This document shows, piece by piece, positions 18,165-56,393 of a stretch of 64,000 nt of DNA. The notes beneath the pieces were generated by a model, which worked only from the letters and a program-made list of their open reading frames with translations, was not told the origin of the DNA and ran no database searches. Positions within the stretch are counted from its first letter, which is position 1; each line of letters starts with the position of its first letter. A program made the position numbers and the translations under genes. Source of the DNA: Burkholderiaceae bacterium (GTDB taxonomy: Bacteria > Pseudomonadota > Gammaproteobacteria > Burkholderiales > Burkholderiaceae_C); the NCBI GenBank assembly GCA_017992055.1, contig JAGOPK010000001.1:558001-622000 (forward strand). Reading direction: 5' to 3'.

Positions 18165-19136
18165 TCAGTCGGCGTACTGGCCGGCGGCCTTGATCGCCGG
18201 GCCCCACTTGTTGATCTCGGACTCGACGAACTTCTTGTGCTCGGCGCCGCCGACGCGGCCGTCGGTCACCAGCACCGCGCCCAGGGCTTCCTGGCGCTTG
18301 TGGAAGTCGGCGTCCTTCAGCGCGGCGCGCAGCGCGGCATTGAGCTTGTCCTGCGCGGCCTTGGGCGTGCCCTTGGGCGCATACAGGCCGTGCCAGATGC
18401 TGACGTTGAAGCCCTTCAGGCCGGCCTCGTCCAGCGTCGGCAGCTTGGACAGCGACGGCGTGCTCAGGCGCTTGGTGGTGGTCACCGCAAAGGCCTTGAC
18501 CTTGCCGGTCTCGATCTGGCCGGTGGTGTTGGTGGTCTGGTCGCACATGATGTCGACCTGGCCGCCTAGCAGGTCGGTCATGGCAGGCGCCGTGCCCTTG
18601 TAGGGCACGGTGGTCATGTCCACCGCCACGCTCTGCTGGAACAGCAGGCCGCACAGGTGCGAGGCGGCGCCCAGGCCGGCATTGGCCAGGTTGATCTTGC
18701 CCTTGTTGGCATTGATCCAGGTGCGCAGCTCGGCAAAGTTGTTGGCCGGCAGGGTGCTGCGGCCGATCAGCGTCATCGGCACCTCGTTGACCAGGCCCAG
18801 GTACTCGAAGTCGCCCAGCGTGTCGTAGGGCAGCTTGCGGTACAGCGCCGGCGAGGTGGCCATGCCGATGTGGTGCAGCAGCACGGTGTAGCCGTCGGGC
18901 GCCGACTTGGCGACCTTGGCCGCGCCCAGCGTGCCGCCGGCGCCGCCGACGTTCTCGATCACGATGGGCTGGTTGTTCAGGTGCTTGCGCAGGGCCTCGG
19001 CCAGGTCGCGGGCGACCTTGTCGGTGGGGCCGCCGGCGGCGAACGGCACGACGATGGTCACCGGCTTCTCGGGGTAGTCGGCCAGCGCGGCGCCGGCCGT
19101 GGCGGCCAGCAGGACGGACAGCAGAAGCTTCTTCAT
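18165..19136 (-). CDS. Bug/TctC-family tripartite tricarboxylate transporter substrate-binding protein
   Basis: This is a periplasmic receptor of 323 residues. The signal peptide is MKKLLLSVLLAATAGAALA, cleaved before DYPEKPVTIVVPF. The Bug hallmarks are FAAGGPTDKVARDLAEAL near residue 32, GGAGGTLGAAKVAKSAPDGYT, and PYKGTAPAMTDLLGGQVDIM. Such receptors are hugely expanded in Burkholderiales, and most have no cognate TctAB nearby, as here. The ligand, probably a carboxylate or a small amide, cannot be read from the sequence. The ATG at 19136 starts at the signal peptide; an in-frame start 10 codons upstream is less likely. Confidence 0.92.
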   Translation of the reverse strand: MKKLLLSVLLAATAGAALADYPEKPVTIVVPFAAGGPTDKVARDLAEALRKHLNNQPIVIENVGGAGGTLGAAKVAKSAPDGYTVLLHHIGMATSPALYRKLPYDTLGDFEYLGLVNEVPMTLIGRSTLPANNFAELRTWINANKGKINLANAGLGAASHLCGLLFQQSVAVDMTTVPYKGTAPAMTDLLGGQVDIMCDQTTNTTGQIETGKVKAFAVTTTKRLSTPSLSKLPTLDEAGLKGFNVSIWHGLYAPKGTPKAAQDKLNAALRAALKDADFHKRQEALGAVLVTDGRVGGAEHKKFVESEINKWGPAIKAAGQYAD

Positions 19137-24524: not shown

Positions 24525-25853
24525 TCAGGACTGGCAGTCCGAGGGATCGCGGCGCGAGATCTTCTTCTCGGCCGCGTACTTGTCGGCCGCCGACTTGACC
24601 ATGGGCTTGAGGATGGACTCGTCGGCCTGCAGCCATTCGGAGCTGAACTGCCACTTGGCGCCGTCCCAGGTGTGCACGCGGGCCCAGTTGGCGCCCATGT
24701 GGTCGGCGCAGCTGGTGGACACCGGGCGCATCACGCCGGCAAAGCCCAGCGCGTCCAGCTTCTTCTGGTCCAGCGCCAGGTTCTCGTAGCCCCAGCGCGC
24801 CTGTTCGCCGGTGACCACCTTGCCCTTGCCGAAGCGCTCCTGCGCGCGCTTGACGCCTTCGACCGCGAACATCGCGCTCATCAGGCCGCGCATGTACAGC
24901 ACCTGGCCGACTTCTTCCTTCGGGCCCGTGCCCTGGCCCTTGGCATGCAGCTCCTTCAGCACGTCCTGGGCGATCTTGCTGTTGGTCTCGGTGCCATGCT
25001 GCATGGTCACGGCGTTGTAGCCCTTGGCGCCGGCGCCCACGTCCTTGACATCGGGCTCGGCACCGGCCCACCACACGCCGTACATCTTCTCGCGCGCATA
25101 GCCGGTGGCCACGGCCTCCTTCAGCGCGGTGGAGTTCATCACGCCCCAGCCCCACAGCAGCACATAGTCGGGCCGGCTCTGGCGCACCTGCAGCCAGGTG
25201 CTCTTCTGCTCCACGCCCGGCGCGGCCACCGGCAGCAGCTGCAGGTCAAAGCCGTGCAGCTTGCTGCGCTCCTGCAGCAGCGGGATCGGCTCCTTGCCGA
25301 AGGGGCTGTCGTGGTAGACCAGGGCGATCTTCTTGCCCTTCAACTTGTCCAGCCCGCCTTCCTTCTTGGCGATCTGCTGCACCAGCGCATCGGCGGCCAC
25401 CCAGTAGGTGCCGGCGATCGGGAAGTTCCACTTGAAGACCATGCCGTCGGCCGACTCGCTGCGGCCGTAGCCGGCGGTGATCAGCGGGATCTTGTCGATC
25501 GGCGCCTTCTCGGTCAGCGCGAAGGTGATGCCGGTGGACAGCGGCTGGAACACCGTGGCGCCCTTGCCCTTCAGGCGCTCATAGCACTCCACGCCCTTGT
25601 CGGTGGCATAGCCGGTCTCGCATTCTTCGAAGCTGAGCTTGACGCCGTTGATGCCGCCGCGCGCATTGACCAGCTTCAGATAGTCCACATAGCCGTTGGC
25701 GAAGGGCACGCCATTGGGCGCATAGGCGCCGGTGCGGTAGACCAGCACCGGGAAGAACTGCTCCTTGGCCTGGGCGAAGGCCGGGGTGGACAGGGTGGCG
25801 CTGAGGCCGGCGGAGATCACCGCGGCGCAGAGGGCAAGGGTCTTGATCTTCAT
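24525..25853 (-). CDS. ABC transporter substrate-binding protein (Liv-type periplasmic receptor)
   Basis: This 442-residue periplasmic binding protein has the signal peptide MKIKTLALCAAVISAGLSAT and the following LSTPAFAQA. The type I periplasmic fold begins with FFPVLVYRTGAYAPNGVPFANGY and contains GINGVKLSFEECETGY and KIALVYHDSPFGKEP. Receptors of this length with the VYRTGAYAPNG start belong to a subgroup found next to CoA ligases in Burkholderiales, so the ligand may be a carboxylic acid rather than leucine. The first ATG of the signal peptide at 25853 is taken as the start. Confidence 0.92.
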   Translation of the reverse strand: MKIKTLALCAAVISAGLSATLSTPAFAQAKEQFFPVLVYRTGAYAPNGVPFANGYVDYLKLVNARGGINGVKLSFEECETGYATDKGVECYERLKGKGATVFQPLSTGITFALTEKAPIDKIPLITAGYGRSESADGMVFKWNFPIAGTYWVAADALVQQIAKKEGGLDKLKGKKIALVYHDSPFGKEPIPLLQERSKLHGFDLQLLPVAAPGVEQKSTWLQVRQSRPDYVLLWGWGVMNSTALKEAVATGYAREKMYGVWWAGAEPDVKDVGAGAKGYNAVTMQHGTETNSKIAQDVLKELHAKGQGTGPKEEVGQVLYMRGLMSAMFAVEGVKRAQERFGKGKVVTGEQARWGYENLALDQKKLDALGFAGVMRPVSTSCADHMGANWARVHTWDGAKWQFSSEWLQADESILKPMVKSAADKYAAEKKISRRDPSDCQS

Positions 25854-53255: not shown

Positions 53256-54839
53256 TCAGCGCAGGAACAGTTGATACACCGGGTTGCCAGTTTCCTCCAC
53301 ACAGGGGTAGGCCAGCTGGGCCAGGAAGGCCTTGAAGGCGCGGCGGTCGGCGGCGGTGTCGGGCACCTGCAGGCCGACCAGGATGCGGCCGTAGTCGGCG
53401 CCCTGGTTGCGGTAGTGGAACAGGCTGATGTTCCAGTCCGGCGCCATGCTGGACAGGAACTTCATCAGCGCGCCGGGCCGCTCGGGGAAGATGAAGCGGA
53501 ACAGCCGCTCGCTGGCGGCCAGCGGCGTGCGTCCGCCGACCATGTGGCGCACATGCTCCTTGGCCAGCTCGTCGTCGGTCAGGTCGACCGTGGCAAAGCC
53601 CTGGCGGCGGAAGCTGCGCGCGATCTTGTCGGCCTCGTCGCGCTTGCTGATGGCCAGGCCGACGAAGACATGGGCCACGTTCTCGTGCGAGATGCGGTAG
53701 TTGAACTCGGTCACCGCGCGCGGGCCGACCAGCTCGCAGAAGCGCTTGAACGAGCCGCGCTCCTCGGGGATGGTCACCGCGAACAGCGCCTCGCGCTGCT
53801 CGCCGAACTCGGCCCGCTCGGCGACGAAGCGCAGGCGGTCGAAGTTCATGTTGGCGCCGCAGGTGATGGCCACGAAGGTCTGGCCCTTGGGCTTGTGCGT
53901 GGCCACGTACTGCTTGATGGCGGCCACGCCCAGGGCGCCGGCGGGTTCCAGGATGCTGCGCGTGTCCTGGAACACGTCCTTCATCGCCGCGCAGACCTCG
54001 TCGGTGTCCACCAGCACATAGTCGTCGACCAGGGCGCGGGCGACGCGGAAGGTCTCCTCGCCGACCAGCTTGACCGCCGTGCCGTCGGAGAACAGGCCCA
54101 CGTCGGCCAGGGTCACGCGCTTGCCGGCCTGCACCGAGCGGTACATGGCGTCCGAGTCCTTGGTCTGCACGCCGATGACCTTGATCTCCGGCCGCACCGC
54201 CTTGATGTAGCTGGCCACGCCCGAGATCAGGCCGCCGCCGCCGATGGCCACGAACACCGCATCGATGGGCCCGGCGCCGTGCCGCGCCTGGTGCTGGCGC
54301 AGGATCTCCATGGCGATCGTGCCCTGGCCGGCGATCACGTCCGGATCGTCGAAGGGGTGGACGAAGGTCAGGCCCTGGTCCTGCTGCAGCGTCAGCGCAT
54401 GGCCGTAGGCGTCGCTGTAGCTGTCGCCATGCAGCACCACCTCGCCGCCGAGGGCAGCCACGGCGTCGATCTTCAGCCGCGGCGTGGTCACCGGCATCAC
54501 GATCACCGCCCGGCAGCCCATGCGCTTGGCCGACAGCGCCACGCCCTGGGCATGGTTGCCGGCCGAGGCGCAGATCACGCCGCGCTGCAGCTGCTCGGCC
54601 GACAGATTGGCCATCTTGTTGTAGGCGCCGCGCAGCTTGAAGCTGAACACCGGCTGCTGGTCCTCGCGCTTCAACAGCACCTGGTTGCCCAGGCGGCGCG
54701 ACAGCGTCTTGGCCGGGTCCAGCGGCGACTCAATGGCCACGTCATAGACCCGCGCGGTGAGGATCTTCTTCAGGTACTCGGTGGCGACCTGGGCGGGGGA
54801 CGTGGCCGGGCGCGGGGCGCCGGACTTCGCGCGGGGCAT
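53256..54839 (-). CDS. ilvA: Threonine ammonia-lyase, biosynthetic
   Basis: This 527-residue PLP enzyme turns threonine to 2-oxobutanoate, the first step of isoleucine synthesis. The PLP lysine K68 is in VFSFKLRGAYNK, ICASAGNHAQGVALSA lies in the catalytic domain and the phosphate-binding loop is AIGGGGLISG. Two ACT-like regulatory domains fill the last 190 residues (EERGSFKRFCELVG; FRFIFPERPGALMKFL), so isoleucine feedback is likely. The start is ATG 54839, chosen over in-frame extensions because conservation begins there. The small-RNA-like element just upstream (54882-54993) ends 43 bases before the start and may be its leader. Confidence 0.96.
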   Translation of the reverse strand: MPRAKSGAPRPATSPAQVATEYLKKILTARVYDVAIESPLDPAKTLSRRLGNQVLLKREDQQPVFSFKLRGAYNKMANLSAEQLQRGVICASAGNHAQGVALSAKRMGCRAVIVMPVTTPRLKIDAVAALGGEVVLHGDSYSDAYGHALTLQQDQGLTFVHPFDDPDVIAGQGTIAMEILRQHQARHGAGPIDAVFVAIGGGGLISGVASYIKAVRPEIKVIGVQTKDSDAMYRSVQAGKRVTLADVGLFSDGTAVKLVGEETFRVARALVDDYVLVDTDEVCAAMKDVFQDTRSILEPAGALGVAAIKQYVATHKPKGQTFVAITCGANMNFDRLRFVAERAEFGEQREALFAVTIPEERGSFKRFCELVGPRAVTEFNYRISHENVAHVFVGLAISKRDEADKIARSFRRQGFATVDLTDDELAKEHVRHMVGGRTPLAASERLFRFIFPERPGALMKFLSSMAPDWNISLFHYRNQGADYGRILVGLQVPDTAADRRAFKAFLAQLAYPCVEETGNPVYQLFLR

Positions 54840-54881
54840 GCGGACTCCAGTTTGCTGCAGCGCCGCATGATAGCCGCCAAG

Positions 54882-54914
54882 AAAAACGGCCCAGGGCCGC
54901 GAGGCCCTGAGCCG
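54882..54914 (-). terminator. Intrinsic terminator of the ilvA-upstream RNA
   Basis: On the minus strand CGGCTCAGGGCC pairs with GGCCCTGGGCCG around a TCGC loop (12 pairs including one U-G), followed by five T (54886-54882). It is the strongest terminator of this region and points toward ilvA. Confidence 0.88.
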
Positions 54915-54993
54915 AAACCACCATTGAGGAGGTGGAGGAGACAAACGGTGGAATCGTTACCACGCCGAGTCATCAGCGCATCAACGATTCGAT
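54882..54993 (-). ncRNA. Candidate small RNA (or ilvA leader) with CUCCUCC-rich loop
   Basis: The RNA of about 112 nt would start near 54993, seven bases after a good promoter. Hairpin 1 pairs GAATCGTT (54990-54983) with AACGATTC (54958-54951). Hairpin 2 pairs CCACC (54951-54947) with GGTGG (54922-54918) and exposes CUCCUCCACCUCCUC (54940-54926), which could base-pair with Shine-Dalgarno sequences. Hairpin 3 is the terminator. This layout, an anti-Shine-Dalgarno motif in a loop followed by a terminator, resembles the proteobacterial CcsR or cuckoo RNAs. An attenuator leader for ilvA is the alternative. Confidence 0.65.
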
Positions 54994-55000
54994 GGAAGCC

Positions 55001-55029
55001 AGTCTAGCCGCTCGAATGCTGCGCTGCAA
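55001..55029 (-). promoter_or_regulatory. Promoter of the candidate small RNA
   Basis: The -35 TTGCAG (55024-55029) and the -10 TAGACT (55001-55006) are 17 bases apart on the minus strand, near sigma-70 consensus. The expected start (about 54993) is three bases before the first stem. Confidence 0.65.
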
Positions 55030-55200
55030 TATCGTTGGTGCCGCATCGATGTGGATTCCTGCAGATTTCTCTAGGGCAATGCCTCCAGAGCGCGGTGCAT
55101 GGCCGCACAACCATGGTGCGTATGCGGTCCGCGGCCGGGCGAGGCACACTGCGGCCCCTCATCAGCCTGATCGACATGCCGCCTGGCATCGGAGAAGAAC

Positions 55201-55623
55201 ATGGAATGCACGATTCACTGGGTGCCCGGCAGCGGCATGGGCTTCATGGCCGAGACCGGCAGCGGCCATGTGCTGGCGATGGACGGCGCGCCCGACGGCG
55301 GCGGCCGCAACCTGGCGCCGCGGCCGATGGAAACCCTGCTCGCCGGCGCCGGCGGTTGCACCGCCTATGACGTGGTGCTGATCCTCAAGCGTGGCCGCCA
55401 CGAGGTCAGCGGCTGCCAGGTGAAGATGAGTGCCGAGCGTGCGCCGGCCGATCCCAAGGTGTTCACCAAGATCCACCTGCACTTCACCGTCAGCGGCAAG
55501 AACCTGCCCGAGGCCGCGGTGGCGCGGGCCATCGCGCTGTCGCACGAAAAATACTGCTCGGCGACCATCATGCTGGGCAAGACCGCCGAGATCAGCACCA
55601 GCCACGAGATCGTGGCCGCCTGA
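55201..55623 (+). CDS. OsmC/Ohr family peroxiredoxin-like protein
   Basis: This 140-residue protein has the two reactive cysteines of the family, in GAGGCTAYDVVL and HEKYCSATIML, so it should reduce organic hydroperoxides or carry out a related thiol chemistry in the cytoplasm. It is of the YhfA-like OsmC branch rather than Ohr. It starts with ATG 55201. It converges on coq7 with 27 bases between the stops. Confidence 0.9.
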   Translation: MECTIHWVPGSGMGFMAETGSGHVLAMDGAPDGGGRNLAPRPMETLLAGAGGCTAYDVVLILKRGRHEVSGCQVKMSAERAPADPKVFTKIHLHFTVSGKNLPEAAVARAIALSHEKYCSATIMLGKTAEISTSHEIVAA

Positions 55624-55650: not shown

Positions 55651-56289
55651 TCAGATGTGATGTGCGGTGCGGGTCATCACCCGCGCCGCCGCGCGCATCA
55701 GCCAGCGCACCGGCGCCGGCATCGGCGCGGCGCCGGCCTGCTGCGCCTCGTCGGCATGGCGGGCCTCGTCGGCCTGCATCTGCGCCACCACCGCGCGTGA
55801 GGCGGCATCGGCCGCCGGCAGCCGGTCCAGGTGGCCGGCCAGATGGGCCTCGACCTGGCGCTCGGTCTCGACGAGAAAACCCAGGCTGATGCGGTCGCCG
55901 GCCGCACCGGCGGCCAGGCCGATGCCAAAGGCGCCGGCATACCAGAGCGGATTCAGCAGGCTGGGCCGGTCGCCCAGTTCGGCCAGGCGGCGCTCGGTCC
56001 AGGCCAGGTGATCGGTCTCGTCGCGGCCTGCGGCGCGCATCTGCTCGCGCAGCGCCGGATCGCGCGCCGCCAGCGCCTGCGCCGCATACAAGGCTTGGGC
56101 GCAGACCTCGCCGACATGGTTGACGCGCATCAGCGCGCCGGACAGTCGCCGCTCATCGGCATTCAGCACCGTGGGCTCGGCGCCGGCCGGCGCGGCGGGC
56201 CGCGGCATGCTGCGCACTGCCCGCAGGCCGCCGCCCAGCGTGCGCAGGGCCTGGTCGGCGGTGGCGATCAAGGCATCGGTGGCGATCAT
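55651..56289 (-). CDS. coq7: 2-polyprenyl-3-methyl-6-methoxy-1,4-benzoquinone monooxygenase
   Basis: This 212-residue di-iron hydroxylase of ubiquinone synthesis has the ferritin-like metal ligands in [34 protein letters not shown] (ExxH), [17 protein letters not shown] and [16 protein letters not shown] (ExxH). A hydrophobic helix ([17 protein letters not shown]) may attach it to the membrane. This is the Coq7/UbiF-replacing type common in betaproteobacteria. The start is ATG 56289; GTG 56295 is possible. Confidence 0.95.
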
Positions 56290-56393
56290 GCGCACGAGGA
56301 TAGCGCAGCGCCATGGCCGGCCTGGCCGTGGTCAGGCCCGGGATGGCTCGTTGTTGGCAGACAACATCCCACCGCCTTTTTGCCGGCAAAGCT

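Follow-up and report, generated by a model that had tools for sequence, protein, structure and literature searches.

A PhaR-type box at the promoter of an S17/RF02278-type small RNA, and its probable place between PHB storage and solute uptake

The small RNAs of Rfam family RF02278 (Betaproteobacteria toxic sRNA) are known, in the literature covered here, as 'toxic' RNAs or as regulators of carbon use. The double-hairpin RNAs ncS03, ncS05, ncS27 and ncS62 of Burkholderia cenocepacia belong here (Sass et al. 2017, PMC5688073); according to the accessible part of that report, overexpression of ncS27 attenuates growth, the family is named for growth inhibition in E. coli, glucose medium raises ncS03, ncS05 and ncS27 by 8.0, 6.9 and 4.3 fold, and three of the RNAs have a common upstream motif, whose regulator is not named there. 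In Bordetella pertussis, S17 adjoins coq7; its -35 (TTGCAT) and -10 (TACTAT) elements are 17 bp apart, 5'-RACE places the start 7 bp downstream of the promoter, and RNase E-dependent processing yields a 67-nt form that begins near a C/U-rich stretch (Sim et al. 2024, PMC11722255). The available text of the same paper lists 32 transporter-related genes or operons as targets, places S17 under the control of BvgA and Hfq, and reports that E. coli overexpressing S17S kept unimpaired exponential growth; PHB, PhaR and phasin are absent from that text. NcS27, as far as the sources at hand go, has a role in uptake and carbon use. Apart from BvgA, for S17, the literature covered names no transcriptional regulator of RF02278-type RNAs.

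PhaR, the PHB-granule repressor, is titrated away by polyhydroxybutyrate (PHB) granules; phasins are the coat proteins of these granules, and phasin genes are the classical PhaR target. In the accessible portions of the reports concerned, the R. eutropha PhaR site is YTKNTGCRNYGCANMAR, with up to three mismatches allowed (PMC12849132); the PhaR-like PhbF of H. seropedicae gives DNase I protection of TG[N]TGC[N]3GCAA (PMC3206438); and R. eutropha PhaR is a repressor of phaP1 and an activator of phaP3. A PhaR-controlled anti-Shine-Dalgarno RNA has a precedent, since PhaR (AniA) of Sinorhizobium meliloti binds the promoter of the sRNA MmgR in EMSA (PMC12542648); MmgR carries an anti-Shine-Dalgarno motif (PMC7143759), both statements following the available text of those papers.

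The RNA considered here is encoded on the minus strand of the window (the whole stretch of DNA analysed, 64,000 nucleotides), between ilvA and an OsmC-family gene, with coq7 beyond (Table 1). Comparison with relatives makes it probable that this is a trans-acting RNA of the S17/NcS27 type, made from a PhaR-controlled promoter and linking the PHB store to uptake. The gene itself is, on comparative evidence, real: the RNA it specifies is structured, has an anti-Shine-Dalgarno stretch, and is served by a promoter and a terminator of its own, both conserved. An earlier note, made from the sequence alone, had proposed a TTGCAG-N17-TAGACT promoter, an RNA of about 112 nt and a 12-bp terminator with five T, and all three proposals hold: the promoter elements are there with a 17-nt spacer, the span of the RNA agrees, and a terminator search returned the terminator. 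The 112-nt RNA has a folding energy of -56 kcal/mol (z = -6.34), and 0 of 200 shuffles were equally stable. A consensus scan at a 9-of-12 threshold called no promoter; the promoter is accepted all the same, because its geometry is conserved in 44 relatives. There the -35 half of the box discussed below reads TTGC (37), CTGC (6) or GTGC (1), and, with spacers of 15-19 nt allowed, the best -10 falls at a spacing of 16-18 nt; 43 of the 44 box-bearing loci show TAnnnT there. The promoter looks sigma-70-like.

Table 1. Features of the sRNA locus, predicted targets and the phasin sibling (window coordinates unless a locus is named)
Feature	Position	Strand	Basis or remark
PhaR-type palindromic box TATTGCAGCGCAGCA, overlapping the -35	55017..55031	-	strict pattern; contig 613017-613031
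-35 element TTGCAG	55024..55029	-	sequence and conserved promoter geometry
-10 element TAGACT	55001..55006	-	sequence; TAnnnT in 43/44 relatives
Predicted transcription start, A, 7 nt past the -10	54993	-	inferred from promoter geometry
Primary transcript, about 112 nt	54882..54993	-	fold z = -6.34, promoter, terminator
5' leader with hairpin 1, not conserved	54945..54993	-	removal by processing inferred, probable
Conserved core, from UUGUCUCC to the terminator; predicted processed form, about 63 nt	54882..54944	-	RF02278 and R2 matches; S17S equivalent
Seed UUGUCUCCUCC, anti-Shine-Dalgarno	54934..54944	-	GTCTCCTC in relatives
Hairpin with a CCACC/GGUGG stem and a variable loop containing CUC	54918..54935	-	fold and covariation
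Intrinsic terminator, 12-bp stem and TTTTT	54882..54914	-	terminator search
ilvA, threonine ammonia-lyase, downstream, family-specific neighbour	53256..54839	-	gene annotation
OsmC-family protein, conserved divergent neighbour	55201..55623	+	annotation and synteny
coq7, 2-polyprenyl-3-methyl-6-methoxy-1,4-benzoquinone monooxygenase	55651..56295	-	also beside Bordetella S17
Predicted target, Peripla_BP_6 solute-binding protein	24528..25853	-	AGGAGACA ribosome site
Predicted target, TctC-type solute-binding protein	18168..19136	-	GGAGACA ribosome site
Own-genome phasin 3' element	L102:2147-2220		GTCTCCT double hairpin

Not all of the transcript is kept in relatives. The first hairpin proposed earlier is present, as 9 outer and 8 inner base pairs in the minimum-energy fold, and its sequence is not conserved; it was rejected as a conserved part, the leader varying in sequence and, by estimate, from 0 to 86 nt in length, with a length of about zero in two members of the genus (L015 and L018). 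Many leaders of relatives fold stably (z between -2 and -3 relative to simple shuffles), and a generic protective stem is possible. The core, by comparison, is shared. GTCTCCTC is present in 46/46 ilvA-locus RNAs, for which it also served as a search string (the set being L001-L067 less 8 duplicates, 12 loci without an ilvA match and L064, with an ilvA match of 31%), and it is invariant across a 44-row core alignment that took in 44 of 76 cores. The stem (U)CCACC/GGUGG(A) is paired in 98.5% of cells and has 5 compensatory cells against 0.3 in shuffles; the window RNA keeps the five CCACC/GGUGG pairs, the outer U-A being absent. The loop above this stem differs in length and sequence.

Because the conserved stem is CCACC/GGUGG, CUCCUCC is placed mostly single-stranded, 5' of the hairpin. 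The second hairpin as first drawn, CCACCGUU against AAUGGUGG with a large CU-rich loop, had to be given up: it is neither the predicted fold nor the stem that covaries. Of the conservation in relatives to which the earlier note looked, the seed and a stem have stood, in the form CCACC/GGUGG, while hairpin 1 and the loop sequence vary. Since the leader is not conserved and the core is, the working part is most likely the short form 54944-54882, that is, a single-stranded UUGUCUCCUCC, the hairpin and the terminator; the near-zero leaders of L015 and L018 agree with processing to such a form near its C/U-rich start. By eye, CACC or CCAC often stands 2-3 nt 5' of UUGUCUCC, both in the sRNA loci and in the phasin 3' elements described below; it could be a processing signal or a competitor for the GGUGG strand.

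Rfam gives no match in the region at its curated gathering thresholds. In permissive mode RF02278 matches over its whole model (1-64) at 54943-54881 with 47.9 bits (E = 1.3e-8), missing the gathering cut-off of 50 bits by 2.1; formal membership is not claimed. By fold and alignment the features of that family (single-stranded UGUCUCC, hairpin, terminator) are all present, and on sequence homology the window RNA is a homologue of the Burkholderia 'toxic/double-hairpin' RNAs. It shares with the ncS RNAs, so far as the accessible description of these goes, the full-length match, two hairpins and a CU-rich stretch predicted to cover ribosome sites, and differs in its score below the cut-off, its longer leader and the single stand-alone copy found in its genome; searches for a second such copy gave only the phasin 3'-end element, and the idea of a second stand-alone copy was dropped. 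RF02278 matches occur in 53/60 genomes of the family, above the cut-off in 39/60 (a congeneric genome reaches 67.6 bits), and in 56/80 genomes of the order. Weaker matches are to Bp1_781 and to Neisseria NmsRb (RF02877), the latter full-length at 27.1 bits (E = 0.037) and below its cut-off of 52. MmgR (alpha-r8) resembles the window RNA in its PhaR(AniA)-box promoter, its anti-Shine-Dalgarno motif and its tie to PHB, and differs, in the portions available of the papers concerned (PMC12542648, PMC7143759, PMC8401924), in being alphaproteobacterial, in carrying the motif in its first loop, in lowering phasins, directly or not, and in depending on Hfq. Homology to MmgR/suhB was rejected, the suhB model RF00519 matching with only 14.4 bits against a cut-off of 41. 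Two genomes of one family in the order (G030 and G134) have nine RF02278 matches each, a few within some hundred bases of one another, which is, judged from these matches, an amplification of the RNA.

Position ties the window RNA to S17. Among 30 loci of the family fetched via RF02278, 29 have osmC and 25 have coq7. A set of 12 S17-type loci (Bordetella hinzii, Achromobacter deleyi, A. insuavis and nine other betaproteobacterial records) was found by a pattern that fixes only TTGCAT, TACTAT and TGTCTCCTCC; here coq7 is present in 12/12 and osmC in 11/12, the exception, L152, being a short stretch. In the order-level loci (the best 30, one per genome, of 56 genomes with an RF02278 match; 1.5-kb flanks), osmC is found in 19 and coq7 in 7. 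Because the coq7/osmC placement is common to S17-type loci, the window RNA is, on synteny, a positional orthologue of Bordetella S17. The likeness, established through the S17-type loci of relatives and the published description rather than the B. pertussis sequence itself, extends to the C/U-rich core, hairpin, terminator, 17-nt spacer and start 7 bp downstream; S17L, however, is about 190 nt long against about 112 nt here, and the S17 neighbour is a glycosyltransferase gene where the window has ilvA. To this extent the window RNA adds a further example, formally a little short of the Rfam cut-off, to the S17/RF02278 type, and so much is familiar. What is new, as comparison of sequences has it, is a PhaR-type box at an RF02278-type promoter, a sibling in phasin mRNA, and an enrichment of solute receptors among target sites. 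In the literature searched there was no report of the PhaR link to RF02278 RNAs or of the phasin 3'-end sibling; earlier mention is possible.

The palindrome ATRTTGCRNYGCARCAW stands at the -35 in 44 of the 46 ilvA-locus RNAs in the promoter alignment; the two without a site are L048, with only 38 nt upstream, and L052, which has no box. The sites were sought with a TGC...GCA string, which builds in those six bases; the R and Y of the core TGCRNYGCA, outside the search string, are kept in 44/44 sites, and the CA after GCA is kept in 43 and 44 of 44, although it lies inside the promoter spacer. All 44 sites have 0-3 mismatches to the published YTKNTGCRNYGCANMAR, and 15 have three. The window box is one of these, at the tolerance limit of PMC12849132, and confidence in the main reading is slightly lowered because the box uses up that tolerance; it has A where phasin boxes mostly have G. 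With a matrix from the sRNA promoters (the window box being among its 44 sites), it is the top site of the 64-kb window, at 29.8 against 15.9 for the next. In the S17-type loci, whose search pattern did not demand the box, 12/12 continue YGCACAAA after TTGCAT. A second box 58 bp upstream is the best-scoring one in 6 of these 12 (L146, L147, L150, L152, L155 and L156), a spacing close to that of the box pairs before phasin genes.

The own genome encodes PhaR (TIGR01848, 155.2 bits against a cut-off of 109.45) and holds 22 strict palindrome places (40 strand matches), against 0 for the backwards pattern. Two are before phasin (phaP) and one each before phaZ (PHB depolymerase), isocitrate lyase and a glutamate-synthase-like gene (Pfam GATase_2); several others are inside ORFs or without a nearby gene start, by crude gene calls. 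Palindromes also stand before a class-III aminotransferase, an MFS transporter, a CoA-ligase-like gene and an OmpW/carboxyltransferase pair. Together with those before isocitrate lyase and the glutamate-synthase-like gene, these perhaps mark a wider PhaR regulon. Among phasin loci (the best 30 of the matches in 40 genomes), a box is found within 200 bp upstream of the gene in 30/30, scoring at least 15 in 29, and 27 have two or more; the density is 57 sites in 5,955 bp before phasin, against 3 in the 90,466 bp of remaining locus sequence and 5 in 60 control loci totalling 180,870 bp.

An alternative keeps the S17/NcS27-type RNA and lets another regulator read the palindrome, or treats it as a mere promoter preference, so that the link to PHB is coincidental. 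PhaR binding at the box is, after all, a prediction, the window box is three mismatches away from the PhaR 17-mer, and the box and the -35 share the bases YTGC, so that conservation of the box is partly that of the promoter. The right half of the palindrome, however, falls in the spacer, where the CA is kept as described; the core agrees with footprinted PhaR/PhbF sites; and the same palindrome, mostly doubled, precedes phasin in every locus of the set. The distribution of PhaR bears on the question from both sides. In the order-level loci, 16/20 PhaR-positive genomes and 0/10 PhaR-negative ones have TGCRNYGCA in the 150 nt preceding their best RF02278 match (p = 3.3e-5), and with one genome per family the figures are 11/13 and 0/8 (p = 2.2e-4); the downstream control gives 3/20 and 0/10. 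The published core was adopted after the result for the looser TGCN3GCA had been seen, which was 16/20 with PhaR against 3/10 without (p = 0.012). Ten of the 30 genomes, then, keep the RNA without PhaR, and 4 of the 20 with PhaR lack the core upstream; for these two reasons PhaR control is not universal. The core is missing where PhaR is missing. Another reader of the palindrome is unlikely, and of the alternatives this one survives best.

The PhaR-controlled S17/NcS27-type RNA would have company in phasin mRNA. In 24/30 phasin loci, own genome included, the gene is followed by a GTCTCCT double hairpin: the GTCTCCT stretch, starting 8 to 167 nt past the stop codon, then a hairpin whose stem is mostly GGNNCC, then a terminator. 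In 20 loci the GUCUCCU is part of UUGUCUCC (TTGTCTCC in DNA). An alignment of 21 of the 24 (L108, L125 and L127 left out) has 12 compensatory cells against 4.5 in shuffles and a covariation score above all 500; two of five measures do not exceed the shuffles: doubly changed pairs number 2 (shuffles 1.9) and further pair types 9 (shuffles 7.3). A first covariance model, R1, held terminator pairs only and was replaced by R2, which, built on the phaP 3'UTR, finds the window RNA at 54945-54882 (30.2 bits, E = 1.7e-4) and four S17-type loci at 36.6 bits. Conversely, ten genomes of the family have a weak RF02278 match 236 to 377 bp downstream of the phasin domain, on the same strand. Across the order R2 has matches in 30/120 genomes; 8 of the 30 loci closely follow a phasin gene, one of weak similarity, and some of the remainder are places also listed for RF02278. 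The phasin 3' element is, on these comparisons, a candidate 3'UTR-derived sRNA.

The seed is complementary to a AGGAGACA ribosome site. Such sites before a start codon, AGGAGACAN(1-8)ATG, occur 73 times in the own genome, against 31 for the permuted AGGAGAAC in the form AGGAGAACN(1-8)ATG. The first 30 loci in contig order, not a random draw, were read for the genes that follow: two overlap, leaving 29 of the 73 places, of which 15 precede periplasmic solute receptors (9 TctC, 5 Peripla_BP_6, 1 DctP). Of the 31 permuted places 25 were read (5 ORFs below 60 aa dropped, one place without a locus), and 2/25 precede solute receptors, or 3/25 counting SBP_bac_5 (p = 9e-4 and 3.3e-3, respectively); for TctC alone the contrast is 9/29 against 1/25 (p = 0.014), and shared ancestry of the TctC receptors may inflate the enrichment in part. 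The seed-site set also holds an alanine dehydrogenase, two acyl-CoA dehydrogenases and a transketolase-domain protein taken for pyruvate dehydrogenase E1; a single acyl-CoA dehydrogenase turns up in the control set. The preponderance of receptors agrees with the transporter targets of S17 and with the uptake and carbon-use role of NcS27. It also weighs against a second alternative, that this is a CU-rich RNA without specific targets which dampens translation generally, as the name 'toxic' suggests. A seed complementary to Shine-Dalgarno sequences would allow that, as would the attenuated growth under ncS27 overexpression (available text of PMC5688073); but the conserved seed reaches past the Shine-Dalgarno complement into UGU, its sites outnumber the permuted ones and are rich in receptors, and S17S left exponential growth of E. 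coli unimpaired (available text of PMC11722255). General dampening is accordingly given little chance.

The earlier note had also offered an ilvA attenuator, a cis-acting leader whose hairpins choose between termination and read-through into ilvA. The setting invites it: a strong terminator closes the RNA about 42 nt short of ilvA, which is read from the same strand; ilvA follows in 29/30 RF02278 loci of the family; and a reading frame across the core runs CUC CUC CAC CUC CUC in the window. This Leu-rich frame is open with a start codon, and runs from start to stop, in 13/17 loci of the genus, 11 of them with CLLHLL, as the conserved bases dictate. But the frame is missing in the other 4, and start, stop and upstream residues are not shared; because of those four loci a leader peptide is, by sequence, probably not a constant part of the RNA locus. 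An antiterminator is absent from the minimum-energy and centroid folds, the only folds inspected, and the distance from core to ilvA varies from an estimated 52 to 748 nt in the 46 ilvA-locus RNAs. Outside the family, in the DNA covered, ilvA is found in 0/12 S17-type loci and in 1/30 order-level loci, that one from the same family as the window; the RNA persists there beside osmC/coq7. Because it thus occurs without ilvA as the positional orthologue of S17, the attenuator is very unlikely and was rejected. Between the RNA's terminator and the start of ilvA there is a second PhaR-like site, weaker than the first (54852-54868, plus-strand sequence TTGCTGCAGCGCCGCAT, score 15.9), and ilvA itself might be affected by it.

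The loop motif of CcsR RNAs is CU-rich and anti-Shine-Dalgarno, a character that the window RNA shares. Kinship with the CcsR/cuckoo (CIN1) stress RNAs, which the earlier note had offered, is nonetheless extremely improbable and was discarded: no Pfam match, and hence no DUF1127, was found in four minus-strand reading-frame stretches around and upstream of the RNA, the best matches among the Rfam models run are RF02278 and NmsRb, and a sigma-70-like promoter of its own, with a PhaR-type box, serves one stand-alone copy in the genome rather than four in a row beside a DUF1127 gene (PMC10253847, accessible part).

There remains the trans-acting RNA under PhaR, for which the conserved core, the promoter with its box, the synteny, the sibling element and the enrichment of target sites supply the comparative basis. 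In the absence of granules, PhaR on the palindrome over the -35 would keep RNA polymerase out; once excess carbon goes into PHB, the granules would titrate PhaR off the promoter and the RNA would be made, together with phasin, whose mRNA usually ends in the sibling element. The transcript of about 112 nt would then be cut just 5' of UUGUCUCC by RNase E, by analogy with Bordetella S17, to give the form of about 63 nt. Its single-stranded UUGUCUCCUCC would pair with GGAG(G)AGACA ribosome sites, chiefly those of periplasmic solute receptors and of some catabolic genes, and would lower their translation, so that the carbon store feeds back on uptake; the phasin mRNA possibly supplies a second molecule with the same seed. 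Expression, binding of PhaR, processing, use of Hfq and repression of targets are all predicted steps, and the sign of the PhaR effect is not certain, because PhaR activates phaP3 in R. eutropha. The higher ncS03, ncS05 and ncS27 in glucose medium (PMC5688073, accessible part) fits a storage signal.

A broader claim is that PhaR commands an sRNA regulon in betaproteobacteria, with a stand-alone S17/NcS27-type RNA and a phasin mRNA 3' element, sharing a seed, both shutting organic-acid and amino-acid uptake as the carbon store fills; this seems a little better than an even bet. The box and the phasin sibling would supply the family with a signal (the PHB store) and with a purpose (uptake matched to storage). 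The sRNA may be the message on which a cell with full stores ceases to feed, and the 'toxic sRNA' family would become, if this is true, a signal of storage status. PhaR-controlled anti-Shine-Dalgarno RNAs would then have arisen in both alphaproteobacteria (MmgR) and betaproteobacteria. Post-transcriptional control would also enter the PHB physiology of bioplastic model organisms; what riboregulation does in C. necator 'remains undeciphered', according to the accessible part of a 2021 review (PMC8401924). One further gene of the own genome, flavin-monooxygenase-like (C7:107755-107950), has a double PhaR-type box upstream together with a AGGAGACA ribosome site, and dual control is possible there.
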